From NCBI RefSeq assembly GCF_041146795.1, contig NC_135172.1, positions 34,643,623-34,707,622 of the forward strand: a DNA stretch of 64,000 nucleotides, given 5' to 3'. The position numbers were made by a program, and so were the translations under genes. Below the pieces are notes generated by a model. That model was not told the origin of the DNA. It saw nothing but the letters and a program-made list of their open reading frames with translations, and ran no database searches. Source of the stretch: Maylandia zebra (Eukaryota; Chordata; Actinopteri; Cichliformes; Cichlidae). Below are positions 12,028-54,100 of this stretch, piece by piece. Each line of letters starts with the position of its first letter. Position 1 is the first letter of the stretch.

Positions 12028-12449
12028 AATCTACGTTCACATGTACCCAGGTATTTTTGAAAACGCAGATTTTTCTATGCGTTTGCACCTTTCGTCCACA
12101 CGTAAACTGCGTTTTCAGTCACTGAAAACAGAGATTTTTAAAAACGCCTGCCAGGGTGGATATTTGATCACTGATGTGTTTAAATGCTTACATATACACA
12201 CACAGTTACTGTCCCTTCACACAGGACTCCTTTCTGCTCCTATGCGCCTATGTTTACGCTTTCCCACCCAGGCTTCTAGACTTCTGATTGGCCAACATTT
12301 CTACACGGTTAGGAATATATCGCCACCTGTTGCTTTGGCATGTTCCTAGCAGCGTTTTCCTTCATTTTTGCGTTTACATGTGGACGGGATTTTTTTCAAA
12401 AACAAAACGGAAAATCTCCTTTTTCAAAAATACCCGTGTACGTGTGGAC
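12028..12449. mobile_element. MITE with fold-back termini (second)
   Basis: Starts ctacgttcacatgtaccc and ends acccgtgtacgtgtggaca, inverted repeats of each other with few mismatches. Related in composition to the preceding MITE. It abuts a ~118-bp GC-rich segment (12450-12567) that leads into the 18-kb element and is partly repeated, inverted, at 30586-30645. Confidence 0.65.
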
Positions 12450-12629
12450 ACCGAACGCGATAGAGGCGGCCAGAGCGTCAGGTTTACATGTAAAGTCAAT
12501 GGAAAGGCGCGATGACCCGCGATTGCGGCTCCCGCGAAAATTCGGAAGCAGATTTGCGTCGCAAAAATATGGCAAGCCATTAGTGCCAAAATTCGCCACT
12601 TTCCTAACCCGTTTGGTTAAGAAATGGCG

Positions 12630-12880
12630 TAAAAAACGCCGTTTAATTTTTCAAAACGCCGAAAAAAACGGCGTTCTGTTCCGACAAACGCCGCTTTTTC
12701 CGCCGCTCGGATGGCGCCCTGAACGCACCATCCGAGTGACGTAAAAAGCGGCGTTCAAAGACAGACGGAAACGCCGTTTTTTACGCTACTCGGCACAAAA
12801 CGCCGTTTTTATGCATCTTTGAACGGCGTTTTTTACGGCGTTCTCTGCCAGCTGTAACGGCGTTTAAAACGGCGTTTTAT
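12630..12880. promoter_or_regulatory. Subterminal array of AACGCCGTT motifs (left arm)
   Basis: About eleven copies of AACGCCG/CGGCGTT occur in both orientations within 250 bp, several paired as stem-loops (for example gtaaaaagcggcgtt against aacgccgttttttac). Dense subterminal motif arrays are common transposase-binding sites in long-TIR transposons; binding here is inferred. Confidence 0.6.
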
Positions 12881-13158
12881 TGAAATTATGCAGGGCACGC
12901 CCCATGGTTCCCTCATCCAATTACTTTCAACTCATTTCACCCAATCAAAGAAGAGGAAGTGCAGACCACACTAATGCATCACCGATTCACCTTGCTGCTA
13001 AGTGATTGCCTATTCAGTACCAGTGCTTGTCACAGTATTCACTTGTATTATAATCCCACTATGCATTTTGATGTGTTTAAGGCATGATCGAGCAAACAAA
13101 CGACAGAATACTTTTTCTGAAACCTTAACTGTGTTACCTGTTATGGCAGCTAACAGGT

Positions 13159-13184
13159 AATGAGCAGAGCTAGCTCTGCTCATT
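13159..13184. repeat. 26-bp perfect palindrome in left arm
   Basis: aatgagcagagct followed by its exact reverse complement, no spacer. The mirrored copy is at 29969-29994. It could extrude a cruciform or bind a dimeric protein. Confidence 0.85.
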
Positions 13185-13209
13185 TCTGAGCTTCTTTCTT
13201 ATTTTCCTC

Positions 13210-14100
13210 TTTACTTCTCTTAACCTTTAACTTATGTTTTAGCAATCAGATCCTGCCATCTTGCATTACCGCTTCGTGCTAGTTATGTTGACTTTTCTCT
13301 TCTTTTGTCTCCACTTTTTTCACCCGTGTTTGGACACTCGGCGCATGGCTCCTTTGTTTACATTAGGGATCAGCTGTTAGCGCTGCGCCCTGCAGCTGCG
13401 CTACCGGCAGACAGACCCTACATCCCCAGTGAGGGAAGAAACGGGGGTGATGTCTCCCGAGGACACCTCACACACCATCTCTCCTTCCTGTAATCACTTT
13501 AAATGTGAGATCGCTCCCTGATATGATTGAGGAGCTAATGACGCTAACCCGGTCACAGTGGCAGTATCCCGGCACTGCCCGGTACTCCCTCTGTGAGTAG
13601 GCTGCCCGGCTTCCAGCTGCTGCGGGCGGACAAGACGAGAGACAGCGGTGAGAGGAAAGGAGGGGGGCTGGCAGTGTTTGTTAAAGACGGTTGTGGTATC
13701 TCTGGGCACATCGCTGTGAAAGAACAACTCTGCAACACAGACATTGCGCTATTAGCCGTTAGCATCCGTGGAGGTAGCCTGTGACTCTCTGTGGTCCGCA
13801 GACTGCAAACGCAATCTCCGAGAGCTCTTCTTCTAATATCAGGGGACTTTAATCATGTCTCGCTGGACTCCACACTGCCCACCTTCACCCAGTATGTGAC
13901 CTGCCCCCACCGTAGGCAATAAAACATTGTACTTAATGTATGCCAATGAAAAAGTGGCATACAGTTCATCACCTCCCCCTCCCCCAGGGAAGATCCGATC
14001 GTAACCGAGTGCGTCTTGTCCCTGTGTGTGCAGCCCTTACTGTGCAGGGAGCCACTAATCACCCACGCAGTGCAGAGATGGTCCGCGGAGGGCATATAAA
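13210..14100 (+). mobile_element. Captured L2-type LINE endonuclease fragment (left arm)
   Basis: Frame 13593-13784 reads GFQLLRADKTRDSGERKGGG, and the next frames give LLISGDFNHV and TFTQYV, motifs of the APE-type endonuclease of L2-clade LINEs. Frame 13305-13493 matches the segment upstream of that domain (LLALRPA). Frames are broken. The identical piece sits in the right arm in inverted orientation, so it entered before the arms became identical. Confidence 0.7.
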
Positions 14101-15756
14101 TAAATAATAAAAGCAAGTAAATGACAGTATGCTCTTTCTGAAACAAACGGAGACCTTAACTTTTATCAAAATACCGTTTTACTCAGTTTAAAGTAATACC
14201 ACTTTTTTCTTTTCGAAATAAGTGGAGACATTAACTTTGATCAAAATTCTTTCCCCCGCCATCTCCCTCCTAAGTGGTTAAACTGTCACACTGCTAGACT
14301 GCAACTGCACTCTTTGGTATCAACTTCTGTAATCCTGTAATTTCTGTGTAAAAGAATTAGATTGTGTATTATATTGTTAGTTTATACACCTGTGTGCGTG
14401 TGTATTTATGTATGTCCATACACATATATGGATTGTGTTTTACTTTTTTGTGCTTGAAAGACGCCCTCAAATGGAACCAAATTCCTTGTATGTGTTTGCG
14501 CATATACTTTTCCAATAAATGCGATTCTGATTGAGATATTTCCCTCTGTATGGCACACACGAGTAAATTAAGTAGAAAAAATGTCATGTGTATAGCCTCT
14601 TTTAAAATTGTTTTTAGGCTTGTAGAGATGACAGTAGGCAAGCAGACAAGTTTCCTGAGGTTGGGCTGAATGAACCTATAACACAGAGATAAACCTAAAC
14701 AAGCAGAAGGAACTTTAGCTAAATATATTTTCATGTACAGCCAAATGACTGTAATAAAGTAGGTAAGCCGTGACCATAGAAAAAGCAAAGCAATCACTGG
14801 ATATACTGTCCAAATTGCTACACACTTTTTAAGCATCGTTCACCAACAAACTGAGTCTAACAAATCATTTTCTTTACTTTGGTAATTACAGTTATTGCCT
14901 TATGTATAAAATATAATTTTAATACCAGTGTTCATTATCTTGACGTGATTCTTTTTTTTTTTTACAAAAAAGCTTTACAGCCTCTTACATAATTCTACCA
15001 CAATTACATAATTGATTTTTAACCAGGTTATAGTGAAAGGCCAGGTGTCAATCTCAGAGTTAACGCCGGAGCTTAAAGTCAGTTTGTTAAAACTGCTTTG
15101 TTCTCGAAACCAGTAAAATTAATTCGTAACTTTTAATTCTGAGTTGAGATTGATTCTTCAGTTCTTGGTTTGAGAACAGATGAGGGTAAATTCATTTAAC
15201 CTTTTACCTTGACTTAAGCACATAATTGTACTACATAGCCCTCGTCAATGGAACCCAATACCAGTATTTGACAGTAACAGGTAAGCCTCAAATTTAATTT
15301 TTAAATAGACAAGACACCATGAGAACTGACATTACAATATTTTATTTTACAAAAGTCAGTGTCTTTTAGTTCAAAGTTTGTCTGGCATCTCTTGTACATC
15401 TTGAAAATAAAAAACAAAAACCACTCTATGCAGTGTACTATAATTGAACATAAACAACAATATTTCAAAAGAATATTTCTAGATGAATTGTCATTTGAAC
15501 TATTTCCTGGAAACTTTCTGAACACCACTTATTTTGCATAGCTTGATGCATGAATACCCTAGTTGTCTTAACTGGACTATAAATATAACTATATACACAA
15601 TGAACAGTCATTTGTAAAAACACTTTTAAAATGTAAAATCTTTAAGAAGCCTGAGTGCCAGGAGCAATCCCCTTTAAGAACATTTACAATAAGAACTTCA
15701 TCCCAAAAGCCCACATGTTTTAACCACAGCTTCCCAGCATCAGTTCATGTATGCAG

Positions 15757-18700
15757 CTACACCTTTCCAAATCCCAGGGATCCTTTTAAGGCATCATTCA
15801 TAAGATCTTTGAATTGATCTTCATCTGCAACACCTCTTGGGAGATACAGGGATAAGCTGCACGTTGATGTGTACGGGATACGCCGCATCCCTGACTCCTG
15901 ATCGTAGAAGTCGATGTTGCAGGACTGTGGGAACCCCAGTGGTGGAAGTAAGTCAGCCCCAGTTATAAAGACGAGGAGCTCTTCAAATGTGTGGTCCACC
16001 TCTCGCTCTGTTAAAATACATACAAGTGTTAAATAAGGTGCAATGTGTAGATTTATAATCAGTTACACTGACTGCATAGTAGAACAGTTGCGTTAATGAC
16101 TATTTTGGAGTCAAAAACAGGTTGTTAGGCAAAACAATTATTGCAAAGCATTGCATTAAAAATAAAAAATAAAAATTACTCAAAGCAATCCTGCCCTGCT
16201 AAGACAGGAAATTAATTTTGTCCTCCGAGTCAGACCTATATGTCAAGGACTGTTTATGCAATGTGTATTTTTTTTTTTAAAGAAGTTATTCATTCTGTCC
16301 TTGCAAGAGTACATTGGCTTTCTAGTGATGTCACATTTGCGTGGGTGTTGTCATTGCACCACTCGATTACTCTAAGACACTAATATACAGGAGGTTTCGT
16401 TATAGTCAACGTAATACCTGAAGGTTCTAGTTAGGCAGTGCATCTAATTAACAAATGACCTTTGTCTCAAAGGGAGACAAGTTTCAAATTGTGTTATTCT
16501 ATCTTAAACACTGCAAAAACACTGGGGGTGATCGTGGCTCAAGAGTCTTGAGTCTTGTAATCGGAAGGTTGCCGGTTCGAGCCCCGGCTCGGACAGTCTC
16601 GGTCGTTGTGTCCTTGGGCGAGACACTTCACCCGTTGCCTACTGGTGGTGGTCAGAGGGCCCGGTGGCGCCAGTGCCCGGCAGCCTCACCTCTGTCAGTG
16701 TGGCTGTGGCTACAATGTAGCTGCCATCACCAGTGTGTGAATGTGTGGATGACTGCTTTAGTAAAGCGCTATACAAATACAGGCCATTTACCATTTACTT
16801 AATTCTCAGATGTGCTAATACAATTGAATCATAAATTTTACCATATTTTAAATACAAGTATGTAATATAACTATTTAATATTTTAGTGTTAGAAGTTTTC
16901 GGTCATGTAATAAAATTAATGTTTTACCAGAAATCACAATGAAAATCAAATTACATCCTATCAGTCTAAACAAGCAAGATCTGGTAGAGATGACAGAGGA
17001 TAAAAGAAATAATCTTCCAAAAATATTTGTTGTAGGTGGTTTCCTTTCAAATACCTCACCTAAAAAGGTAAAATAATCAAAAACTTCCTCATATGCTCTA
17101 AGAAGGGGTGGATTTTGCAAAGTTCTAAGGTTTTATTGCACCCAAGTGTTGTTTCGATTTAGTTGTCTGTATTTTGTATTGTGGACACTGTATTTAACAT
17201 GAAATGCCTGAAGCAATTCAAACAGAAACAAGACATGTGTTGTATTCTATGTACTCACCCTGAATGGCCATAAGCCACCATTCCCACTGAAAGATGGTTG
17301 CTTCCTCTTCTTCACGTCTGTTACTTCCAGCTGGACTCCATCCAATGGTGAAGAGATCCTGGAAGCTGTTCCTTGTAAGTTTATTTCCTGCATTTGTAAA
17401 TACAGGAAGGAACTGCTTCCAGCATCTCTTCACCATTTGCCAGAACCGACCACATGAGTCCATACCGGCAACAAACTGCTGAATCATGCTGGCAACCCTG
17501 TTGACCACAGATTGTACTCTCAATTCATACAACATAGCAAAATTGTGAAACAAAACAAAAAGTTTTGTCAATTTAAACACCACCTTAACTGCAATACAGA
17601 TATAAACTCAGCAGATTGATGATTTGTTTAAGTGTTAACTATTAGGGGGGAACACAATGGGAAGACGAGCACTGACCAGGAAAGTACTTTGTAATTTTCT
17701 AACAAATTCTCACCTGTGAAACGCAAAATGAGATACAATCTCGCCCCTTATCCTCTTAACATCAAGTAGTGTGGCAGTGTAGATGTCAGGGATACCACAG
17801 CCTGCAATCCAGTCCCCAAGGTGACTTTTCAAGTCTGCCAGGTCTTCTGGGGTGCTGCAGCTGGAAACCTTGAAAATTAGGCACCTCCATAAATACATAC
17901 GTTTAAAGCATTCACTAAGTGTACTTACATTTTGAGACGTTCCACTGATGAGTTAAGCTATGCATTGTGTTTCACTGAATTTAATTACACCTCAGCATGC
18001 ACACAGTTTTACCTTTTCTATGTTCTGTTTGACGTCTTCGTCCATGAAGACCTCTACATCGAAGTCATCAAGAGATGTCTTCTGGCCACACATCATACAG
18101 AACAGGTGTCTGTTGATACACCGTGGCCCTGGCCCATTGTGTGCTATCGACCAAGCAATCAGTTTACCAGCCGTATAAAACTTGTTGCTTGACAGCAACT
18201 GCTGGCTATAGCTGAACAACAGACTGCCAGGCTTCCCCTCAAAAATCCCTAGGGAATTCTGAGTTTCGACCATAAGTAATCTGCAGGAAAAGATAGTAAA
18301 AAATAAAAAAAAAATTGAGTCAAATTGTGATTTCATCTTTGCAACAAAAAAAAAAACAAAAAAAAACACATTCATGCATTCTATTATTGTGTGGGAGAGA
18401 TGGGAATGGGTTACCGAAAAAATTCCCGCCTTGGGCCTCCATAATCATCGGCCATTTCACCAACAAATTCAATATTTGGCAATTTATGCCAGGCAAAATA
18501 TGACTTGGAAAGTGCCATGCAGGCACTATGTAGGATTTTCCTACGTCGGGCTATTATTGCACAATAATTGCTGGTGTCAAGATGCGTTTCCTGGAAATCT
18601 TTCATCACAGTCGCAAGGTCCATCTCGTCCTGAAGAGGGGGGGGGGGGGGGGGGGGGGGGGGGAAGAGAGAGAAGGGTCATGACTACATGAAACACATAC

Positions 18701-21700
18701 ACAGCAGTTCTGGCAGTGTTGTTCATGAGACATACATGCGAGTCATTTTGTTCAGGGGAAGCCAGGACAGCCTCATCCAGGTCTGATACTTCTGACTCTG
18801 CAGAGTCGATGTAAAACTCTTCCCTAAACAGAACAAATGCATTTGATTTTTTTAATATCATGTATACATACTGAAATGGAATGACTCATCTGATAAAAGA
18901 ATCTGATTTCACATTATTTGGTCCTTGATTGCATCTGTTGGAGCCATTTGGATTTAAACAAATTTCAAAATATTAAAATATAAAGTTTGTTGTTAGTTTA
19001 CTTCCATTTCTGGGTTAATCATTTTTTTATTTGTAGGTTAATGCTCACTTCATTGTTTTGTTGTTTATCTTATCAAGTCAGCCAGGAAGAATTTCAGGGC
19101 TATTTTTGATAACTTAAGAGACTGGTATAAGACCAGCATGCACTGAGATGGGCCTTTTGTTTTGTTTGTTTTTTAATTTGAGAGACAAGCAGCATGAAGG
19201 AACAAAAATGGATCTTGTTATTGGTTGCCAAAATGGATCAATAAACTATAAAATGCAACTTTCAAGTTTTGACAGTGCAGTTTTCCTGCGCACAAAAGAT
19301 TATCACAGGCCAGCAGTGTCTTCTTTTCCTTTTTTTGTGAAACATAAGGAACTGCCCATTTACTGGGAATAGTTTGGGTGATTTGTAGTTCCAAGTGTCT
19401 GAATGGTCAGGCTGACTAAAGTGTTATCGATGCATTTTCAGCAATTAAAAATACCTATATCATGACATCAACAAATCTGAAAAACATGAAAAAGCAAAAC
19501 AGAAACCGAATGAGGCAATTAAACCATTGGTCTATATTCAGAGCACATAAATGTTATCAGTTCAATACATGCAACCTTTCAAATTTTAATATTCGCTGGT
19601 CTCACCCCGTATATTGTACTTATTGAGTGTCTATTTACCTATAGTGTGTGCTTTATAAGTTCCAGTTTACACTTAAGTTTTGGCATGTTATTCAACAACT
19701 ACCACTTGCCTGTTAACCTCTGGTTCCTGGAGACCATGCCTACTAGAATGAGCTGTATGTGTCATGGTCTACGGTGGGTGGCTGGAGTTTCCATTAGGCT
19801 CCTGAACTGACCTGGGATCCGCCCCTGGGCAGGGCCAACTCCAGCTCCTGCACACCTGGAGCCTATTGCAGGCTATCAAGCCAGAGGGATTTAAACCACA
19901 CATCGATGTTCACTCACTGCCAGTTCGTCATCAACCCATGTTGGTAACAGGTCTTGTGTTTCAAGTTCTCGCTGTGCTTCATCTTACTAACTAAGACTCT
20001 TTTGTGCTACAGTCGCTGTACCCACCCTGGCTCACTCCACCTCCGGACTCGGAATACCTAGTGATCATTTTGGAAATCACTCTGTGCCTCACCTGCCTGC
20101 CCTCCTGCCATCACACTCCATCTGGAGCCCCGGATCTCAGGTCAGCCTTTCCACGCCACTCAGCCTCCCCTGGATCTTCATCATCCCCCTCTCAAACACT
20201 CCAGGTCCCTAACTGCAAAGTAAGAATTGCTGCTCTTATACTGGCCACTTCTGAGCTGCCTTCACTACCTGCCTAACTTCTATATCCTCTCCCCTCAGTG
20301 TGACTGTTCCCCACTCAGCTCCGTTCCACTTCTCAGGCCTCGTTCCCTCGCCCTAGCCACGTTCCCCTGGGCACGCCACACCAAGGCTCCACGTCTCGTC
20401 ATTTTCTGTCTTTGCCACGTTTCCCTTTTTTTTGTTCCCCTTGCACTTAACCGTAATAAACTATTAAATCATCTACCGTCTCCGCTCTGGGTTCCTGCAC
20501 CTGGGTCCTATTCAGTACCGGCCATCCGTCGCCGTGACAGTATGGTTTTCATGCAGACCACTGCAAAGGAATAGCAGAAATATTTCATAGCAGGAAGAGG
20601 ACCCCAATGCAGATATTTATTGATCTAGACTACACAAAATGATCCAAGTTATAATAATGATATAATTAGTTTGTACCAAACTAGTTTTTACCAAAAAAAA
20701 TAAATGAAATTGTGCAATAGTTTAAGATTAAAATTCCAACTCATAAACAAACAGAGTGCCATTTACCTGATAACCTCTGGCTCCTGTACATTGTGCCTGC
20801 TATGGTCAGGTGTCTCGGTGTCATGCAGCACACTGCAATATGGTAAATATTGTTGATGAGAGGGTGTAATGCATTTACAGTGCTACAGTCCAAAGGCAGT
20901 TGTCAAAGACTTACATTGCCATCTCAGACTGCACAACTTCTCCACCAGTTGAGTCCTCATTGGCCTCTGTAATCTAAAACACCAGATTATTAAAATATAA
21001 AAGAAATGGAACAACAAATGACAAACAAGAACAGAGGACAACGCGCCAACTGGCAGGGAAACACACAAGGCTTAAATACATACTGAGGTGATTAGGGAAT
21101 GTGAAACAGGAGGAGAGCACAGCTGGGACTCATCAGACATGACGAGGCAAAACTCAACACATTGACATAGTACACAGACTTTCAAAGTAAAACAGGAAAC
21201 TGAACAGACGTGGACTAACCTAGGGGATACGGTGACAGAACAAGAGACACACTGACAGAGACGACTGTATACTAACAGAACACAGAACCACGACCTAAGA
21301 AGGAGAACACAAGAAATGCCCAGGACCTAGGAAGTTAGGAATACTAGCGACAGAAATCAAACCCAAGAGAATCAAAACACATCATGAAATCAAAGCTAAC
21401 TAATACAAACAGAAAAACACCGAGTCCACAGACTCAGGACCGTGACACTTTGGGTAGGTAGAACTTAGGATAACTGAGGGGGAAAAAAATAAATAAATAA
21501 ATAAAGGTTAAGGACATTAACAAAAAACAATGAAAAAGCCAGAACCCAGGAAACTAAGATTACAAGAACAAAATGACCCTAACATACTGTTAGACCACAG
21601 TTGAAGCTTGCTCTACTGCATTTCTGTTATTAACAGTGAATCAATTGGCGGGGCATTATTTAAGCATAGCCATCTGGCATAGTGATCAGATGAATGTCTC

Positions 21701-22997
21701 AAATCCTTTGGGGAAAATCACAGCATTTATTATTCTGAGCAGTAACATGTTAAAGATGTCTTATACAATACTAGGGTGACTGGAGCGCCACTGAGTTACA
21801 GTAATAGTGACAATTATGCCATATCAGCCACCCGAGTGGAACATTTGAATACCTTTGGACGGATATAAAGATTGGAGCGACCCAGTAGGTTTCTTGCTCT
21901 AATTTCTTGGGGCGTCTCCTCTTCAAGAGGAAGAATGAGCCGCTGTCCATTCACTTTGCATAGATCGAACTGCAAGGGTATGTCTGCAATATTGTCCCGT
22001 AGTGCCTGCCTGAATTCAGCTGCATTTAGGTTTACAGGAACGACCACACGAGTAGCAGGAGTGGCATCTGTAATCAAATTTAAACCAAATTAGCTTTCCC
22101 TAAAAACGGAAAAGGGTAAATTGTCACATTGTAGTGTCTCAACATCAACTTATTGGTGCAAGGAAATAAAGATTACAAAGGTGCTAAAAATCTAATGCCA
22201 AATTCTACAATTTGTAAACAACTGACACCATGATGTAATTCTCATTTTTCAAACCCATCACTCCAAATAATTAATATTAATATAAATATTGATTACCCCT
22301 ATGAGATCGGTAGTGTGTCAGTGTGGGATTCCTTAGTACTGACACCTTAAACGTTAACTGGCGATGTCTGGTTCTCCCGCCTCTTGGTCTGCGCACTGGC
22401 CCACCTCCGTGCTGTTGGCGGAAAACTCCAAAGCTATCATTAGACCATGAGATAATTTTAGTGAAACTAATCACACAGAGACACCCCCCCCCCCCCCCAA
22501 GAAAAAAAAGAAAAGAAAAAAAAACCACCCAACACACTCAGAGTAAGGAATGAGTGTTCAATCGGTGTTTATTGCATGCATTTTTCGATTGTCTCGCAAA
22601 TTAAATGCTCCCTGAAAATATGGGATATGCTACATTTATAAACTAAAATCTTTATGCATAAATGCACATAACAGGGATTAAAATGACTGTCATTTGAAGT
22701 CGTCAATCTAGGATAGACATTTATGATTACAGAATTTGTTGTTGAATTGTAACAGATAATTAGTAAACGAGCCATTTATTATTTAAAAATGTAAAAGTTA
22801 TTTCCTTTTGCAAAAACAAAAAAGGCGCAAAGCTAAAAGCTTGCCAATAGAGTAACCACCACCAAAGCATTTCACCTTTGTAGAAGAGATGTCCCCTCTT
22901 CACTGTCATCTTGATTCAGTAGCCGGTTAAATTGGGCATTCATTCTGTCTCTGATATCAGTGACTCTCCGTCGAAATGCAGCGCTCCGTTCGGACAT
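15757..22997 (-). CDS. HECT-type E3 ubiquitin ligase carried by the transposon
   Basis: Twelve minus-strand exons join in frame: 22876-22997 (starts MSERSAAFRRR), 22297-22466, 21853-22067, 20915-20973, 20767-20832, 19710-19759 plus 20545-20560 (split by a solo LTR), 18736-18823, 18415-18629, 18013-18280, 17714-17868, 17259-17497 and 15757-16007. The sum is 637 aa, or 615 if the LTR-split exon is skipped. The C-terminal ~310 residues form a HECT domain: FVGEMADDYGGPRREFFR, YTAGKLIAWS, GPGPR, then LLVFITGADLLPPLGF and the catalytic cysteine in YTSTCSLSLYLP (codon 15859-15861, 33 residues from the end). HECT enzymes pass ubiquitin through this cysteine. It resembles G2/M-specific (G2E3-like) HECT proteins found beside integrase genes in animal genomes. 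The N-terminal half is low-complexity and acidic, with no domain I recognise. Exon 6 uses a GC donor. Confidence 0.8.
16524..16797 (+). mobile_element. tRNA-derived SINE in HECT intron
   Basis: Head with gtggctcaag and a B box ggttcgagccccgg, a conserved body, and a tail atttaccatttac. About 270 bp, between the last two HECT exons, antisense to the gene. The B box belongs to the SINE, not to a tRNA gene. Confidence 0.75.
18637..18662. repeat. Poly-G tract
   Basis: About 25 G residues; on the minus strand this is the C-rich tract just upstream of the HECT exon 8 acceptor. Confidence 0.9.
19760..20539. mobile_element. Solo LTR, 780 bp, inserted in a HECT exon
   Basis: Starts TGTCATGG and ends CCGTGACA (TG...CA with a short inverted repeat TGTCA/TGACA), flanked by an exact 5-bp duplication GTATG (19755-19759 and 20540-20544). 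An AATAAA-like taataaactatt lies near the 3' end. No internal retroelement genes adjoin it. Removing the LTR and one GTATG restores a 66-nt exon equal in length and phase to its neighbour at 20767-20832. Confidence 0.9.
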
Positions 22998-24554
22998 GAC
23001 TGTTCCCAAAAAGTCCGCCAAAAGGCTGGGCAGAAATATATATATAGCATCCCTAAAATTCAAAGTACGGCGGGAGAAGGTACATTGTTTATGATTGGAT
23101 AAGCAAGACTGAAGGTTGTGTTTTTTTTTTAATCCACCCCTTACCACAACCTGTGATCAGAATTTGTGTTAACCAATCACAGTCAACCTCATATTTGTGT
23201 TGTCTCAATCAAGCTATGTGCGACAAACTACATACAGATGAATGCATGCGAAATCTCTGCGCCAACAAAAAACACCGTAAGTACCCTAGTTAATCTCAAT
23301 TATTGTTCGTCTTTGCTAACTAAAAGCTAAGCGATGATTCAAAAACATTGCTTTGTCCTTTTAAGCACATGTTATATGTTAGCTTTGTATTGTAGTAAGC
23401 GAAAAAAAAGTCATGCTGAGAACCTTCACAGACAAGTCATGCTAACCTTTGTCCGTTAGGAATGTTGCCAACATGCCATTTTAGGTGAGGCATGTTAATA
23501 AGGTCTTTAATATGGTACTCCGTTTAGCCACTTTATATTATTTAAAATACGGTTTTATATCACTTGTTACATTAGCCGGATTAGGCTACACGGTACTGCA
23601 CTGCCATCCCAGATAGCAAGACGACATTGAATTGATGTTGATTTTTTTTCTATAAAGTACCGGAGAAAGTAGATTGAATGTTCTTTTGTTATCACTGATT
23701 TATGGTCTAGTTACAGTTCACTAGCTATGTCGACGTGCAATTTAGGTATATCTGACCGGTAAATTAAAGCAGCGATCACCTGGACTGTTCCGTATCACCC
23801 CTCTCACAGTGGTACATCCCTCCAGGTAACCATTCACAAGTCTTGTACAGTAGAGCGGGAATTAATCTCAGCGGAATTGAGAGGAGAAAGTGGATGCAAG
23901 CTGCCGTTAAACTTGACTGAAGAAGAAGAAGAGAGGAGAAAGTAAAGAAATGAATAAAGAACAGTCAGTATATGCAGAAAATAAATAATAAAGTTAAAAG
24001 ACAGCATGGTCTTCATGAACCCAGGGTACAATACAAAAATGTCGTTTTATTTAAGTGAGCAAAACAATGTAGACCATGTTCATTTTGGTAATTAGTTGGA
24101 AAAAAAAAACTAATGACAGCATTTAAAATAAACAAAGATGAATAACATGGATGGGAACATTTGACAATGGAATCGGAACATTATCAAAAATGATTTTTCA
24201 GATATGCTGAGTAGAAGATGCGGAGATTCAAATTTTTAACTTGGGTGTGTGTTTGAAATATGAAAATATTGGTTGACATCGTTGACATACTGCTATTAAA
24301 GATAGGAATATGTATGAAACGTAGATTCAAAAGCTCTATTAACAGAACTATAACCTGTTAGAATGTGACATTTATTTCAGATGCATTCTGTAACTGTTCA
24401 CAGTCCCAATACTTAGTGATGACAGAGTGTTTCCAAAAGTGCTCAGTCACAATTTTCAGAAGACTAACATGAAATTTTTTGATTTATTTAAATATATAAA
24501 CCTGTTGAAAGCAATAATTTAAATTTTTGTCTTTGTAGAATCACAGTACAAAGT
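22998..24554. other. Divergent intergenic region between HECT and integrase genes
   Basis: About 1.5 kb with no recognisable coding frame. It must hold the promoters of both genes and a 5' UTR exon of the integrase gene. I could not identify a clear TATA box for either. Confidence 0.5.
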
Positions 24555-26823
24555 ATGGCCTGGAGGATTTTCATCTCAAGGTGCAAGAACATTCATAATG
24601 ACTGTACATGGCGGCTGCTGATGGACGATGTTGGGCCAGATGTGCTACAGTTAGCGTTAAGGAGGTATGATGAAAGCATGATGGAAAACATTTAACATTT
24701 TAACTTGCATAAAATGTTTAAGGGGAATATGGCCTGAAAATATAACATGAATTAAGAAGTAATTTTTTGATGTCTTTGAGGTTGGAGACAATGCAGAGAA
24801 GCCTTCGGTGGGCAAGAGGAAGACTGATCAGTGTAACTGCAGCAGATCAACTTCTGCGTGACTTGGCTGAATTGATTCAGGAGGTCGAACTGTCTACTCA
24901 GCATGGCCAACAAGGTAAGCACATATTGTGTCGATTCCTTGACTGATCAAAAGTGTGAAATAAATTATGACTCTGTCTTAACCTATTTTCCAAATACACC
25001 AAACGCTTATATATTTTCAGGCTCTTTTGGATACCAGGCACCAGTGGTTTTCAACAGAGGTAGAGGCAGATCCCTTTACCTTATCACTCGGGAACAGCTT
25101 TCATTCCTGAAGTCATGTGGATTCACTGCACCTCAGATGGCTGATATTTTGAATGTTTCACTTCGTACAATTCGAAGACGTCTGCGGTCAGTGACTTTTG
25201 AAACCAGTGTGACTTTCAGTTCTTTTGTGACACACACCCACTGTTTATTCAAATTAAATGGTATTGTGAAATTGTAAAAATTAGTATATTTGAATGTGCA
25301 CTAACTAGTCAAGTAATGATGTGTGTTGTTATGGCAGTGATAAAATACTCGTGTTCTTTTTGTCTGATTTCAGACAGTATAATTTCACCCGTGCATCAAT
25401 GTATGCGGAACTGACTGACAGTGCGCTGGATGAACATGTGCAGGACATTGTCGCTGGCAATGAACAAATTGGTCCTGAGGCTGTCAGAGCCTCCCTGCAA
25501 GTACGTGGACTACGTGTACAGCGAAGGAGGGTTCGAGCAAGCATGCTACGGATAAATCCTGGAGCAGCTGCCATAAGAGCAGTTTTGCGGAGACCAGAAC
25601 GAAGAACATATCAGGTTGCAGGTCCAAACTCATTGTGGCACATTGATGGAAATCACAAGCTGATAAGGTAACCAAGCACACTGATTTGTTGAACACCTAT
25701 TTTGACCAAAGTGAAATTCAGCATTACATCAAATATAACTGTTGAACAGTAAGGCACATCCAATAGAGCCAGGCCCTGTGATGGGCAGTCCTCTAACACA
25801 ACTGGTTATGTTTAAAGGGGAAAATGAGAGAACACAGACATCGCAAGCAACGTACAGACAAACTTGACATGCAATAGTGCCATGTAAATCAATTAAGAGT
25901 GTGTGTTTCCATTGTTTCAATAACAAAGCAGAAATAAGATTTTTCTTCTTATGGACCACTGTTTTAGGTGGAGGATAGTCATTCATGGGGCTATTGATGG
26001 ATACAGTCGTCTTGTGGTCTTCCTTCATGCCTCAAACAACAACCGTAGCAGTACTGTTTTATCAAGTTTCATCAGAGCCGTGGTATCCTATGGTGTACCC
26101 TCGAGGGTCCGGACAGACAGAGGAGGGGAAAACAATGCTGTCTGCCTGATGATGAACATTTTCAGAGGCTTTGATCGTGGAAGTGCCCTAAGAGGAAGGA
26201 GTACCCATAATCAGAGAATTGAGAGGCTCTGGGGTGATCTGTGGCGAGGAATGACCAATGTGTACTGTGATTTATTTCACCACCTGGAGGAGGAAGGCAT
26301 CATTGACATTGACAATGAAATGCACCTTTGGGCTCTCCATTACATCTATCTCCCAAGGATCAATAGAGATTTGAAAGACTTCACTCAACAGTGGAACAAT
26401 CATGGCTTGCGGACAGAGAGACACTTGAGCCCATTACAGATTTTTGTCCGAGGCAGCCTCCAGCAACAGGGCCGAGCCTCAACTGCCATGCAGGACATCT
26501 TTCAGACCAGAGCAGCTGCTGCTGATGGGACTATTGGTGGGACAGCTGATGGTGGTGTGACAGCCACTGAGAGTGAGACGACTGCTGCTCAGGGCTCAGG
26601 TGCAGATTCTGGTGGTGGTGCTGCTGCTCATGGTACAGATGAGCTGGGATTGCTGGTCGACTGGCCTGAGAGGATTACTGTGCCAGACATTGAATTTACT
26701 CTGGACGGAATGGTGATGGAGCAAGTGGTAGAACTGTTTAATCCACTAAGTGGCACCAGAGGGAGTCATGGTATTGAGCTCATCACTGGCTTAATATACT
26801 TTCTGGACTCCACATATCACTGA
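24555..26823 (+). CDS. DDE integrase-type transposase of the 18-kb element
   Basis: Five exons: 24555-24664, 24781-24914, 25021-25186, 25374-25667 and 25968-26823, summing to 519 aa. The acceptor just upstream (about 24540) implies a 5' UTR exon. A helix-turn-helix lies at about residues 105-137 (FTAPQMADILNVSLRTIRRR). The rve/RNase H-fold core follows: D228 in LWHIDGNHK, D285 in RVRTDRGGEN and E320 in HNQRIERLW, giving 34 residues between the last two (DD34E), plus the family word IDGYSR. A C-terminal Gly/Ala/Thr-rich stretch (about 410-450) is unassigned. All three acidic residues and every splice site are intact. It would cut and join the element ends. The family is widespread in fish and cnidarian genomes as uncharacterised integrase-core proteins. 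Confidence 0.85.
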
Positions 26824-27059
26824 GACAGTTCAATTAATGACTGAAACATAATAGCAGCAAGTGGAAAGACTTCAAAATATCTAGGTGACTGGATACATAT
26901 AATGTGAAAAGTTATGATACGTGTTTACTATGTACCATTGAGTAGTGGTGTAAATGCTGTTAAAATGTTCTGTGTGGATTTCATGATGTAGATGACTGAT
27001 TTATAATAAGTTACATAATATCATGAATATATATATAGTTTGTGTTGAAATGTCTTTAT

Positions 27060-28050
27060 TTGAAATGTACATGTGTAAGAGCTAGTGTCTCGTGAGAATA
27101 CCCTTAACGAGAGTACACGAGACTTTGCATGGACTGCGAGGGAGCAGATGTCTCTCATGAAGCGATTTTAAGTTAAAAGTTTACTAAAAGAAAAAGCAAC
27201 ACAAGGACTTAAGGACCTCTTTTCAGGACAAGCAGCCAACGAGGTATTTGTCATTTGAGAAATGTTGTTATTTGTGTTTGGACTTAATATGTGTACTCTA
27301 AAGTTGCTAATTGATTTGTACTGTTCGCTTGTGACCAGTTCTCATGGTGTATCGGCGTACTGGTGATGGTGAAGCCAAGGAGAGAAGGCCCAAGTAATAA
27401 ACGCCCGTTTCAAAGAACCGACCTGTGTCTGTGTTGTTGTGAATTCTGTCATGGAAATCAGTGCATTTCCTGAAAGAAATCTCTCCTTCCGGGTCATCCG
27501 TGGATCGAGTTTCCTTCGAGATGTGGGCAGCGATAAGCAGAGTTTTGTATAAGATTAATTATTCAAAGTAAGCTCAGGTATGCCGTTCAGCGGGTTAGTT
27601 ACAGCGCCGGGAGTAGCCTGGGAGAACAAAATGATACAGAGACTGCTTCAGGTTGCTTTCCCAAAATCAACTCAAAGTTTATTCTTCTGTGCAGGGTTTT
27701 TATAGGCAGAAGGGTAAAAGTGTGTCAACAAGTTTCAAGTTACAAGTTACAACCATATAAGGAAGTTCCCCCTAGCTCTGAAAGGGGCCTTCTATAATCT
27801 CAACATACAGGTCCATTAAACACTAGACAGTTAGAATCCTTTAGTGATATAAGTTTGCACATGGTAGAATACTGCATGTAGTTATTTGCATTAGGAAATT
27901 TTTAACCATATATACCTAAAGGCACATAATCAATGGTGTGTGATCTTTAGCAGGCTGCAAACTTGATGTGCACTCGAGGAATGCACTGTCCCACTATACC
28001 ACAGCAGGATCAACGCAGCTATGTCTGTTCCAGTTTAAGTGCCTTCTTTA
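27060..28050. mobile_element. LTR-like segments, relict
   Basis: On the minus strand, 27560-27720 contains a TATA-like ctataaaaac followed within about 30 bp by an AATAAA, the order of a retroelement LTR promoter and poly(A) site. On the plus strand 27360-27440 has taataaacgcccg followed by a T/G-rich tail. No TG...CA boundaries or duplications were found, so extent and identity are uncertain. No retroviral genes are present. Confidence 0.3.
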
Positions 28051-28261
28051 CATATAGATGAACTGTTGGATTTTCCAGACCAGCAGGCCAAAGGAAGTTG
28101 CCCGTGGGGTCGCAGCAAGAGGAGATGAAGTTCAAACAAAGGGCATTGCAGAAACAGGGTCCTTTGTATAATATCATCAAAAAAGGTATTCAGTACATGC
28201 TCCCAAAATACTAAAATATCTAACATTTCCTGTATCCTTTGGGGCAACAGACCTGAGTCAC

Positions 28262-28560
28262 ACTTTTAGAGAAGTACCTGGTGAGGTGGATTGAGAGGAA
28301 TATCCATGATGCATGGCAGTTTGTTCACTCACTTCCTCTCCACCACAGCTTCCGAAGTGCAGCCAATCACAGAGCTTGCTCTCCTGATCCAAGAAGAACA
28401 CATCAAAGTGCGCTGCACAAGCTTGCTCACAAAAAATAGCCTGCCCATACACTGCTTGTGTACAGCTTCTGTTTTGATCTTCCAGTTCAGCAAATGTATA
28501 TATGTGGGTGTCCAGGTATTTGTGCTCCTCCACCACATCATATCAGTGGGTTCAGTATCT
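28262..28560 (-). mobile_element. CR1/L2-type LINE 3' relict
   Basis: Minus-strand frames give EEHKYLDTHIY and, after a frameshift, LLNWKIKTEAVHKQCMGRLF, the region behind the reverse transcriptase active site in CR1/L2 LINEs. Frameshifted and partial; it lies inside the 18-kb element near its right arm. Confidence 0.6.
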
Positions 28561-28949
28561 TATACTTTTGTCAAGATAATGCACACTGCAGCCGACAGTT
28601 ATCAGAAAGAAGCCATTACCAAGTTACATGGATTCTTTTTTTTTTTTTATAACTTCATGTCATATAAACTAGTTATGTTATGTGCAACACTGTCATGTGC
28701 CACTCTGGTTTTATGTTTCAAATTCGTGTAAGACATCCACAGTACTCTGATGACATTGACAAGGACATCTCCAGTTTACGTGGGAAACTATTATTTCAGG
28801 TTCTTGAGATTACTTATTTACGTCAATTTTGAGAAAACGTACATACAGGTCTGATTCAAAACTGTATATCTATTTTTTTAATGCATGTTGAAAGGGCAAA
28901 AATATTCCTGAGATACTGTTAACATTATTAAATTTGAAGGCTATTATAC

Positions 28950-30585
28950 AGTGGTATTACTTTAAACTGAGTAAAACGGTATTTTGATAAAAGTTAAGGT
29001 CTCCGTTTGTTTCAGAAAGAGCATACTGTCATTTACTTGCTTTTATTATTTATTTATATGCCCTCCGCGGACCATCTCTGCACTGCGTGGGTGATTAGTG
29101 GCTCCCTGCACAGTAAGGGCTGCACACACAGGGACAAGACGCACTCGGTTACGATCGGATCTTCCCTGGGGGAGGGGGAGGTGATGAACTGTATGCCACT
29201 TTTTCATTGGCATACATTAAGTACAATGTTTTATTGCCTACGGTGGGGGCAGGTCACATACTGGGTGAAGGTGGGCAGTGTGGAGTCCAGCGAGACATGA
29301 TTAAAGTCCCCTGGTATTAGAAGAAGAGCTCTCGGAGATTGCGTTTGCAGTCTGCGGACCACAGAGAGTCACAGGCTACCTCCACGGATGCTAACGGCTA
29401 ATAGCGCAATGTCTGTGTTGCAGAGTTGTTCTTTCACAGCGATGTGCCCAGAGATACCACAACCGTCTTTAACAAACACTGCCAGCCCCCCTCCTTTCCT
29501 CTCACCGCTGTCTCTCGTCTTGTCCGCCCGCAGCAGCTGGAAGCCGGGCAGCCTACTCACAGAGGGAGTACCGGGCAGTGCCGGGATACTGCCACTGTGA
29601 CCGGGTTAGCGTCATTAGCTCCTCAATCATATCAGGGAGCGATCTCACATTTAAAGTGATTACAGGAAGGAGAGATGGTGTGTGAGGTGTCCTCGGGAGA
29701 CATCACCCCCGTTTCTTCCCTCACTGGGGATGTAGGGTCTGTCTGCCGGTAGCGCAGCTGCAGGGCGCAGCGCTAACAGCTGATCCCTAATGTAAACAAA
29801 GGAGCCATGCGCCGAGTGTCCAAACACGGGTGAAAAAAGTGGAGACAAAAGAAGAGAAAAGTCAACATAACTAGCACGAAGCGGTAATGCAAGATGGCAG
29901 GATCTGATTGCTAAAACATAAGTTAAAGGTTAAGAGAAGTAAAGAGGAAAATAAGAAAGAAGCTCAGAAATGAGCAGAGCTAGCTCTGCTCATTACCTGT
30001 TAGCTGCCATAACAGGTAACACAGTTAAGGTTTCAGAAAAAGTATTCTGTCGTTTGTTTGCTCGATCATGCCTTAAACACATCAAAATGCATAGTGGGAT
30101 TATAATACAAGTGAATACTGTGACAAGCACTGGTACTGAATAGGCAATCACTTAGCAGCAAGGTGAATCGGTGATGCATTAGTGTGGTCTGCACTTCCTC
30201 TTCTTTGATTGGGTGAAATGAGTTGAAAGTAATTGGATGAGGGAACCATGGGGCGTGCCCTGCATAATTTCAATAAAACGCCGTTTTAAACGCCGTTACA
30301 GCTGGCAGAGAACGCCGTAAAAAACGCCGTTCAAAGATGCATAAAAACGGCGTTTTGTGCCGAGTAGCGTAAAAAACGGCGTTTCCGTCTGTCTTTGAAC
30401 GCCGCTTTTTACGTCACTCGGATGGTGCGTTCAGGGCGCCATCCGAGCGGCGGAAAAAGCGGCGTTTGTCGGAACAGAACGCCGTTTTTTTCGGCGTTTT
30501 GAAAAATTAAACGGCGTTTTTTACGCCATTTCTTAACCAAACGGGTTAGGAAAGTGGCGAATTTTGGCACTAATGGCTTGCCATA
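28950..30585 (-). repeat. Right terminal inverted arm (1636 bp)
   Basis: Reverse-complement copy of 12568-14203, including the LINE endonuclease fragment (29053-29943), the 26-bp palindrome (29969-29994) and the AACGCCGTT array (30273-30523). Equal length and near identity point to recent formation or homogenisation. Confidence 0.9.
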
Positions 30586-30645
30586 CTTTCCATTGACTTT
30601 ACATGTAAACCTGACGCTCCGCCTGCCTCTATCGCGTTCGGTGTG
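30586..30645. repeat. Inverted flank repeat outside the right arm
   Basis: Reverse complement is about 90% identical to 12449-12506, which lies outside the left arm; the left side has an extra 61 bp (12507-12567) before TATGG. It is either the two arms of a small palindromic element that was the target, or part of the transposon arms with a deletion on the right. Confidence 0.6.
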
Positions 30646-30896
30646 AACACAAGAGTCCTGAGAGCAAAATGTGTTGCTGCTATCAGAAAGATGCTATGAG
30701 TCAGGCCTATGATTTGACCAAGTCAAGGTTTGATCAGATTTCCAGATAAGCACAGTGTGAGTGCAGGTCAGCAGGGAAGTGGTTATTTTCATGCTCAGGT
30801 GTGAAATAAGGTAGCAGGACATAGTGTGAGTACGGCCTTAAAGTCATATACTGTTACACACAATTTGGAGAATGATCCTGCAGATATATAACATGT

Positions 30897-51147: not shown

Positions 51148-54100
51148 ATGAGGAGACTTCAAAACCTGCTGTTCACCTTTTGCAGTAAGTTGTTTAAACT
51201 GGTAAATAACTAAAATATAAAGATCAAAGGCTGATGTAGACCAAGTAGTACATCTATCTCTTCTAGTAATTTAGAAGAACAGTAGGCCAAATGCTTTTTC
51301 AGTCTTGGTAATTTCGTTATACAGCATTAACATTGTTAGTATGAAATCTTGCATGATGACCACAAAGAAAATACACACACAAAAACGTTTCACATTCTTT
51401 TTCCAGTTGCTCTGAGGTGTGTGACCAGTGCAGTAGGGGTGATCCATGTAACTGGATATGTGGGGAGTGCGGTTAAAGTTTCCTGCTCCTATGATCAGGG
51501 TTACGAGTCTTATGAGAAGTACCTGTGTAAGAATGACTGTGGCAGCAATGATGATGTTCTTATTACAACATCAAATCCAGTGACAAGCAAATACAGGATC
51601 CATGATGACAAAACAGCACGAATCTTCACAACGAGCATCTCTGACCTTCGTTCTGTGGATACTGGGAAATACTGGTGTGGCGTGAGCAGAACTGGAAAAG
51701 ATATTTACACTGAAGTCGAGCTGAAATTAGTAAAAGGTAAATAAAGACTTCTTTTGCACACTGAAAGTGAGTTACAGTTAAAGATAAGGAATTCATAGAT
51801 AGTATCTGTTTGTTCAGCATTATCTGTTTCTCTGCTGTAAAATTTAAACTACTATATGAGCATCAAATGATGGAAAGCAGTCACAAGTTTAGAAATATAA
51901 ACTTGAGCTCAATATGAAATCCTTAAGTTATATATACAGCTGTTTAATGGGTGTAACATGTCTTCTGATGCTTTTACCCCTGTTGACAGACCACTGCTGT
52001 GATACTGTGACCAAAATTCTGAATTATCAGGGATATTCAGAATCCATTAGTTGTCCGTATGAGCATCAGTACCAGAACAGCCTGAAGTACATCTGCAGAG
52101 GAAACCGGCCCTCCACATGTCTTCAGCAGGCATTAATCACCTCTGACAACAAGGAAAATGGACGATTCAGACTTGATGATGATAAAATGTTAAAAAAATT
52201 TACAGTGAACATCACCAGTTTGAGCCAAGAGGATTCAGGGTATTACCTTTGTGGTGTCCGAAGAAACTTTGCCCATAATGTTTTCTCTGCAGTTCTGTTG
52301 GAAGTTGAGGGTGAGCAGTCAAAGCTACAGTGTATTTAATTACATCCGTTGAATATCTGATGATTCTGAAATAACCTTTTTCTTTCATTCATACAGAGTT
52401 CTGCTGTGTCAAATCAACTAAAATAAATGGTACTGTGGGACATCCACTAACTTTGCAGTGTCCTTATCCTTCACCACACCGGGATAACAGGAAGTTCCTC
52501 TGCAAAGGAGACCAGCACAACAGCTGCACAGATATGCTGAAGAATCAAAGCAGATTCACACTACAAGATGCTTCTTCCAGCACTTTCATTGTGATAATCT
52601 CAAAGCTGGAGGCAGCTGATGCTGGGACATACTGGTGTGGATCAGACTCACAGTGGAGAGTTGGAAACTACACCAAGATTCAGTTGTCAGGTATGTTATA
52701 CACTTTTGTACACACTATGATAATACAATAAATATATTTGTAGGATATGTGTTTGTTTGAGCTCCATTATGGAAATAGAGAGTAGGTGATCATTCAATTG
52801 TCTGAGGTTTGATCTAATAAAAACGGTTAGTCCAGTGCTCCCCACCCAAAGAATAAAATAAATAAATAAACAAAAACAAAAAAACAACAACAACTGAGCC
52901 TTACTACTGCTGGTAAATCACTACCAAAACTTTTTGCTGCCTCAGGACTGCGCTCTTCTGGACAGAGATCTCCGATGTTATTCCCGGGATCTGCTGGAGC
53001 CACTCGCCTAGCTTGGGAGTCACCACACCTAGGGCTCCGATTACCACGGGGACCACCGTTACCTTCACCCTCCACATCCTCTCGAGCTCTTCTCTGAGCC
53101 CTTTGTATTTCTCCAGCTTCTCGTGTTCCTTCTTCCTGATATTGCTGTCATTCGGGACCGCTACATCAATCACTACGGCCGTCTTCTTCTGTTTGTCTAC
53201 CACCACTATGTCCGGTTGGTTAGCCACCACCATTTTGTCCATCTGTATCTGGAAGTCCCACAGGATCTTAGCTCGGTCATTCTCCACCACCCTTGGGGGC
53301 ATCATTCGTTGTCTCATCCTGGACTGTGGTGCTGACACTCACCAGTCCCCGGCCCCCTTCCTTCCGCTTAGCGTACAGCCTCAGGGTGCTGGACTTGGGG
53401 TGAAACCCTCCATGCATGGTAAGGAGCTTTCTTGTCTTTATGTCAGTGGCTTCTATCTCCTCCTTTGGCCAGCCTATTACCCCAGCAGGGTACCTGATCA
53501 CAGGCAGGGCGTACGTGTTGATGGCCCGGATCTTGTTCTTACCATTCAGCTGACTCCTCAGGACTTGCCTGACCCTCTGCAGGTACTTGGTGGTTGCAGC
53601 TTTTCTAGCGGCCTCTTCATGGTTCCCATTCGCCTGCGGGATCCCCAGGTACTTGTAACTGTCCTCTATGTCTGCAATGTTGCCTTCTGGTAGTTCAATC
53701 TCCTCAGTTCTGACTACCTTCCCTCTCTTTGTTACCATCCGACTACACTTCTCCAGTCCGAACGACATTCCAATGTCATTGCTGTATATCCTGGTAGTGT
53801 GGATCAGTGAATCGATGTCTCGTTCACTCTTGACATACAGCTTGATGTCATCCATGTACAGGAAGTGGCTGACAACTGCTCCGTTCCGTAGTCGGTATCC
53901 GTAGCCAGTCTTGTTAATGATCTCACTGAGGGGGTTCAGGCCTATGCAGAACAGCAGTGGGGACAGAGCATCTCCTTGGTAGATCCCGCACTTGATGGTG
54001 ACTTGTGCTATGGGCTTGGAGTTGGCCTCTAGTGTTGTGCGCCACATCCCCATTGAGTTCCTGATGAAGGCTCTTAGGGTCCCATTGATCTTGTACAATT

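Follow-up and report, generated by a model that had tools for sequence, protein, structure and literature searches.

The 64,000-nucleotide stretch of the Maylandia zebra genome analyzed in this work (contig NC_135172.1, positions 34,643,623–34,707,622; hereafter, the window) contains, at positions 12568–30585, an element of about 18.0 kb in which inverted arms surround two genes located head to head on opposite strands, one encoding an integrase-type transposase and the other a HECT E3 ubiquitin ligase. HECT is not confined to this one element as a partner: it was found in all six other integrase families examined in the genome, in one of them weakly. According to the explanation that best accounts for the data as a whole (probability of about 0.8), the element is a copy of an IS3EU/GingerRoot cut-and-paste transposon with a regular HECT second gene kept under constraint, the product of which would act as an E3 ligase on a host protein.

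The window element and its two genes

The main features of the element were as follows (TIR, terminal inverted repeat; HTH, helix-turn-helix):
12568..14203, + strand: left TIR, begins TATGGCAAGCC, pairs with the right arm; the same end is present in most copies
28950..30585, − strand: right TIR, ends GGCTTGCCATA, pairs with the left arm
24555..26823, + strand: integrase-type transposase gene, 5 exons, 519 amino acids, HTH and PF24764 core
15757..22997, − strand: HECT E3 ubiquitin ligase gene, 11 exons, 604 amino acids, structure guided by P0121–P0123

A preliminary description of the window had reported two co-linear inverted arms of 1636 bp, and this was borne out: 1635 of the 1636 positions pair (x with 43153 − x), with a lone mismatch at 13839. 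The models of both genes are predicted transcripts, which rest on homologous fish gene models or proteins and on splice sites.

The integrase gene consists of exons 24555–24664, 24781–24914, 25021–25186, 25374–25667, and 25968–26823 on the + strand, separated by four introns, all GT..AG, and its frame is open to the stop codon. The previously described catalytic residues were found at exactly the same numbers, namely, D228 (25645–25647), D285 (26116–26118), and E320 (26221–26223), with 34 residues between the last two. In the Pfam search, PF24764 was matched with 3.8 × 10−93, the HTH was just at the cut-off, and PF00665 (4.4 × 10−7) was below its cut-off. In 27 integrase relatives from fishes and echinoderms, D285 was invariant, and D228 and E320 were conserved at a level of at least 90%. 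The predicted structure of the integrase homologue P0002 had a mean predicted local distance difference test score (pLDDT) of 57.7. Viral contigs scanned with the integrase yielded no relatives, the scan reaching close ones only.

The HECT gene consists of exons 22997–22876, 22433–22297, 22067–21853, 20973–20915, 20832–20767, 18823–18736, 18629–18415, 18280–18013, 17868–17714, 17497–17259, and 16007–15757 on the − strand; its ten introns are all GT..AG, the frame is open to the stop codon, and the catalytic C571 is encoded at 15859–15861. A run of 27 G (18637–18663) is located beside the acceptor of one of the HECT exons. The protein passed the cut-off of Pfam PF00632 (40.4 bits versus 23.9), and C571 was invariant across 36 aligned homologues. 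Like the known HECT E3 ligases (Rsp5/NEDD4, SMURF1/2, AREL1, and HUWE1), it can be aligned over the whole domain to Rsp5 (residues 256–603) with the catalytic Cys in register and a matching predicted fold, whereas it differs from them in being transposon-encoded and only 14–19% identical to the 50 listed solved chains. The fold was assessed on the predicted model of P0121, a homologue with 96% identity to the window protein over 408 columns (pLDDT ≥ 90 at 287 of 497 residues). A Foldseek search with this model retrieved the HECT domains of HUWE1, SMURF1/2, NEDD4, and AREL1 with E-values of 4 × 10−13 (best 4.1 × 10−13) to 1 × 10−11, modest TM-scores of 0.34–0.49 by query length, and a root-mean-square deviation of 6.6–16.6, the high values of which may reflect either a different placement of the lobes or a loose fit; the homologue is thus predicted to have the HECT fold. 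An N-terminal 99-residue stretch of the protein had no match among solved structures, and one HECT exon used as a query against prokaryotic genome contigs, in a scan that reaches close relatives only, found none.

In the window copy, a 780-bp insertion breaks an optional exon, so that the HECT gene can be called intact for its main splice form and for its catalytic domain only. The peptide of this exon was whole in the two other copies looked at (C1:38.14M and C22:6.98M).

19712..19759 (bounds approximate), − strand: what remains of the optional exon of the HECT gene (...HTAHSSRHGLQEPEVNR), which is part of gene model P0121 and interrupted in the window copy
19760..20539: 780-bp insertion private to the window copy, lacking in the other five near-full-length copies

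Copies of the family, their ends and insertion sites

The genome searched comprised 962 Mb in 63 contigs. A 637-base query from the outer end of the left arm gave at least 83 matches, around which 29 stretches were retrieved. Both genes were found within the same arms in six near-full-length copies located on six contigs, with a size of 18.0 kb for the window copy and 16.5–17.2 kb for the five others. The proposal of the preliminary description that the HECT gene belongs to a transposon with an rve-fold transposase was thus supported. The outcome named there as refuting it, namely, that the two genes never share the same arms, was not borne out, since the two genes lie together between the ends in these six copies and in a second family (family B, see below). 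Chance is excluded as the source of this arrangement, because the arm piece has at least 83 genome matches and the six near-full-length copies share their content.

One copy of 11.7 kb kept the integrase region and part of the HECT gene. Eight further copies of 2–8.6 kb had lost much of the middle; six of these had an identical junction (13520/27356), including four of about 4.2 kb, and the copies with this junction look like a non-autonomous subfamily. Another segment varying between copies, which may be a nested insertion characteristic of a subfamily, was as follows:
27473..28223: 751-bp segment, lacking in C33:4.30M and C3:5.14M; shared by the window copy with four further near-full-length copies

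The HECT frame was open in all six near-full-length copies, two of which had a 3-base in-frame deletion in common. The integrase was fully open in three of them (window, C33:4.30M, and C1:38.14M), was frameshifted early in C4:16.09M and C22:6.98M by a common 2-base deletion, and had a 5-base deletion changing only the last residues in C19:10.34M. Outside the arms and exons, C4:16.09M and C22:6.98M differed at 4 of 10527 sites; therefore, an integrase-defective copy has been amplified in recent times, presumably in trans. The variant codons of the six copies comprised 13 synonymous and 6 non-synonymous ones in the HECT gene and 5 and 10, respectively, in the integrase gene. A simple neutral count for HECT gave P = 2 × 10−5, on small numbers and related copies; selective constraint on HECT among the copies of the window family was thus shown on small numbers.

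The window and most copies of its family had the ends TATGG..CCATA. Target-site duplications (TSDs) were counted in the 14 copies with both ends readable; the count did not cover C3:5.14M (right flank not retrieved), C13:31.5M (one end not found), and the eight one-ended loci L030–L037. An exact 6-bp TSD was found in seven of the 14 copies (TGTAGA, GATTTG, CCTCTC, CCTGCG, TTGACG, GCTTCA, and GGCAGC), and a TSD read by the analyst as shifted or one base off in three more (C22:6.98M, C1:38.14M, and C21:5.97M). The window flanks (CAAAAA/CTTTCC) form no TSD. A TA dinucleotide TSD, a reading based on the window alone, was ruled out by the TATGG end and the 6-bp TSDs of the other copies.

Of the 12 insertions examined, six lie in the same GC-rich repeat with inverted ends, or touch it on one side, at varying positions, which may reflect either a preference for this target or its abundance:
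Window, 12442..12567 and 30586..30650; L009/L010, L017/L018, L021, L024, and L016: insertions at the GC-rich repeat
12442..12506, + strand: flank outside the element, end of the GC-rich repeat that hosts it
30586..30650, − strand: opposite flank of the element, corresponding inverted end of a repeat of this type

Since the insertions sit at differing positions of the repeat, its copies serve as empty sites for one another. After the removal of one duplication, the C19:9.28M and C4:14.58M sites gave an unbroken alignment with 96.9% identity over 355 bp. It should be noted that three near-full-length copies without a TSD abut the CTTT..ACATGTAAACC end of the repeat on one side (window, 30586; L010, 8503; L016, 8508). 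This arrangement may result from deletion, recombination between the arms, or an odd insertion.

The near-perfect arms and the lack of a TSD in the window copy would also be expected if unrelated neighbouring genes had been trapped between the arms of a palindrome, or if the structure were an assembly artefact. Such an origin is exceedingly improbable given the content shared by six copies on as many contigs, the exact 6-bp TSDs of other copies, the repeat copies serving as empty sites, and the second family with both genes.

Integrase–HECT pairing across families and fishes

The integrase exon query gave 132 genome matches, most of which were 35–57% identical and represented other families, and the HECT query gave 87. 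The matches formed 126 integrase and 45 HECT clusters, and 29 of the latter were located no more than 20 kb from an integrase cluster, versus 0.24 expected by uniform chance. In all 29 pairs, the two clusters were on opposite strands, 9 being divergent and 20 convergent. Since copies are not independent, families are a better unit of comparison than clusters. Six diverged integrase families (A–F) were therefore examined, of which A, B, C, and E were chosen because the HECT query showed HECT nearby, and D and F because the first HECT query showed none; the latter two were then searched with a richer profile. Several HECT exons were present in each of A, B, C, and E, and in D the HECT became clear with the richer profile (two exons, 1.9 × 10−23 and 3.9 × 10−19). 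In all six families, the HECT was opposite in strand to the integrase and had TC at the catalytic place (weakly seen in F), so that the catalytic Cys was kept in all seven families, including that of the window.

Among the six other families, only B was delimited at both ends in sequence: it measured 10406 bp, held both genes inside, had the TSD GTAACC on both sides, and its ends (TATGAGGTGCC..) were identical over at least 152 bp. The termini TATGAGG.. were present in families A and B. The left end of family A was found by comparing two copies, and paired ends were obtained as well; a TIR pattern search in the retrieved stretches of families A, C, D, and E gave nothing convincing.

Since every one of these families (one only weakly) has a related HECT beside its transposase, the two genes seem to be stable partners. 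Over eight pairs, the integrase and HECT identities correlated (r = 0.58, reached in 0 of 20000 permutations), some of the alignments being short.

A different reading is that a host HECT gene was captured once and has since been carried as a passenger with no benefit to the element. Related HECT genes do exist in groups that follow the host tree, and elements devoid of both genes transpose. Meanwhile, HECT is present in the window family and the six others, with integrase identities of 27–70% among the five families compared; the catalytic Cys is kept in all seven; constraint was observed among the copies; and gene order varies between divergent and convergent, so the pairing outlived rearrangement. 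A passenger gene is accordingly considered improbable.

In some other fishes, too, HECT appears as a regular second gene, as indicated by adjacent genes or fused gene models. In Coilia grayii, HECT P0126 and integrase P0045 are located on consecutive locus tags (ACEWY4_001485 and ACEWY4_001486). Single gene models with both Pfam domains accounted for 3 of the 120 proteins listed among 2528 matched, namely, P0086 (Odontesthes) and P0132 and P0229 (Triplophysa tibetana). In P0132 and P0229, a single predicted transcript runs from the integrase into the HECT; unless this is a prediction error, it would represent a third arrangement (same strand).

Phylogenetic analysis was performed with quick trees, in which long branches were flagged. 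In the HECT tree (52 rows), one set of 14 rows (Shimodaira–Hasegawa-like approximate likelihood ratio test, 99) united the window sequence with those of Coilia, Odontesthes, and the two Triplophysa fusions. Outside this set were a percomorph group and a group of otophysan Neuralized-HECT sequences, both of which look like host genes. In the integrase tree (41 rows), Coilia and Odontesthes grouped with Merluccius (98), and the Triplophysa fusions formed their own deep set. The nearest named HECT homologues were fish gene models annotated as "G2/M phase-specific E3 ubiquitin-protein ligase-like" (for example, P0122, P0127, P0128, and P0133), some of which are transposon genes by this evidence.

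Classification and possible role of the ligase

The window family appears to fit the IS3EU/GingerRoot superfamily, as judged from published descriptions. The features in common are TA..TA termini, a 6-bp TSD (at the family level), TIRs (1636 bp; at least 152 bp in family B), and an rve-type D-D-E core. The suggestion that the element may represent an under-described lineage was not supported in the sense of a new transposon class, because the ends, the TSD length, and the PF24764 transposase core all fit this superfamily. According to PMC10045372, IS3EU and GingerRoot form a single lineage. Repbase of May 2022 contained 45 IS3EU families, 17 of them autonomous; the termini of complete families are always TA..TA, their TSDs are usually 6 bp long, and the elements have TIRs and an rve-like transposase. 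The HHCC motif is stated there to be lacking, and none was found by Pfam in the window integrase, which does have an HTH. The arms of 1.6 kb and the length of 16.5–18 kb distinguish the window family from the elements as described there.

The fungal TET+ IS3EU elements, as presented in PMC12730594, have TAYGG..CCRTA ends, 6-bp TSDs, TIRs of more than 30 bp, and, in the reverse orientation relative to the transposase gene, a gene for an alpha-kinase. The window element resembles them in the end motif, the TSD length, and the presence of a further gene that encodes a protein-modifying enzyme and runs against the transposase gene, but has a HECT ligase where they have an alpha-kinase and a TET/JBP dioxygenase. 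The words "HECT" and "ubiquitin" are absent from the main texts of PMC10045372 and PMC12730594. A literature search for HECT or ubiquitin combined with transposons, integrase, or IS3EU, with most subscription journals and Repbase Reports outside its coverage, revealed no description of such an element. One candidate retrieved with "HECT" and "integrase core domain" (PMC4255032) was set aside, as it concerns retroviruses and the word HECT was not found in its main text.

Under the preferred explanation, the element in the window belongs to a family of cut-and-paste DNA transposons, the DD34E integrase-like transposase of which would act on the TATGG..CCATA ends and insert the element with a 6-bp staggered cut; this biochemistry is presumed, and the ends, the 6-bp duplications of sister copies, the intact residues, and the large number of copies are observed. 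In this genome, HECT is regularly present as the second gene of such elements; it is under constraint among the copies of the window family, and it probably helps the element. Its product would most likely be a catalytically active E3 ligase ubiquitinating a host protein that restrains transposition or controls repair or the cell cycle. Restriction factors, the cell cycle, and the transposase itself were already candidate targets in the preliminary description. A host target (a restriction, repair, or cell-cycle factor) is somewhat more likely than the transposase, given that the HECT frame has remained open in copies with a broken integrase.

The alternative is self-regulation, in which HECT ubiquitinates the transposase of its own element and thereby limits or times transposition. 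The correlated identities of the two proteins and the retention of the pair in each family examined, as expected of interacting partners, are consistent with it. However, shared inheritance within one element would also yield such a correlation, some pairs are discordant, and the HECT of C4:16.09M and C22:6.98M is open despite the early integrase frameshift, the near-identity of these two copies indicating recent spread. Self-regulation is thus regarded as rather unlikely.

Several observations weigh against the explanation preferred here, that of a transposon with a constrained HECT partner directed at a host protein. No TSD was present in four of the 14 copies counted (window, C4:16.09M, C19:10.34M, and C4:0.88M). 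Variation in the integrase fitted neutrality (P = 0.27), and constraint on the two genes differed only at P = 0.08. Short derivatives devoid of either gene carry exact TSDs; consequently, HECT is not needed in cis. No integrase cluster was located within 20 kb of 16 of the 45 HECT clusters, some of which are truncated copies, whereas others may be host genes. In family F, the HECT was a single weak C-lobe match (5.5 × 10−4) at the edge of the stretch. Finally, identities were discordant between the window and Triplophysa (HECT 0.51 but integrase 0.34) and between family E and families A–C (0.43–0.44 but 0.27–0.29, respectively); therefore, partners may at times have been exchanged.

A tentative extension, which we consider slightly more doubtful than probable, is that HECT is general in animal IS3EU as a counterpart of the alpha-kinase, that many fish G2/M E3-like genes are transposon genes, and that some host HECT genes, such as Neuralized-HECT, were domesticated from them. 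A superfamily that keeps a ubiquitin ligase as its second gene would imply an interface of host control or self-control based on ubiquitination, and the handling of host proteins by a transposon would become testable with a single Cys mutant. In addition, a number of fish genes now annotated as E3 ligases would be relabelled as transposon genes, which matters for studies of gene families and selection.

Some minor observations concern other loci and reading frames. Five HECT C-terminal clusters with no integrase cluster nearby were found within 0.3 Mb (C21:2969903–3283541, G000) and are perhaps a local gene family. In the arms of the window element, a Pfam search with the reading frame 13548–13781 gave no match; the frames at 13494–13852 and at their mirror in the right arm resemble a piece of a fish long interspersed nuclear element (LINE) endonuclease. 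Outside the element, at 52904–56388 of the window, long reading frames of up to 535 amino acids overlap on both strands.

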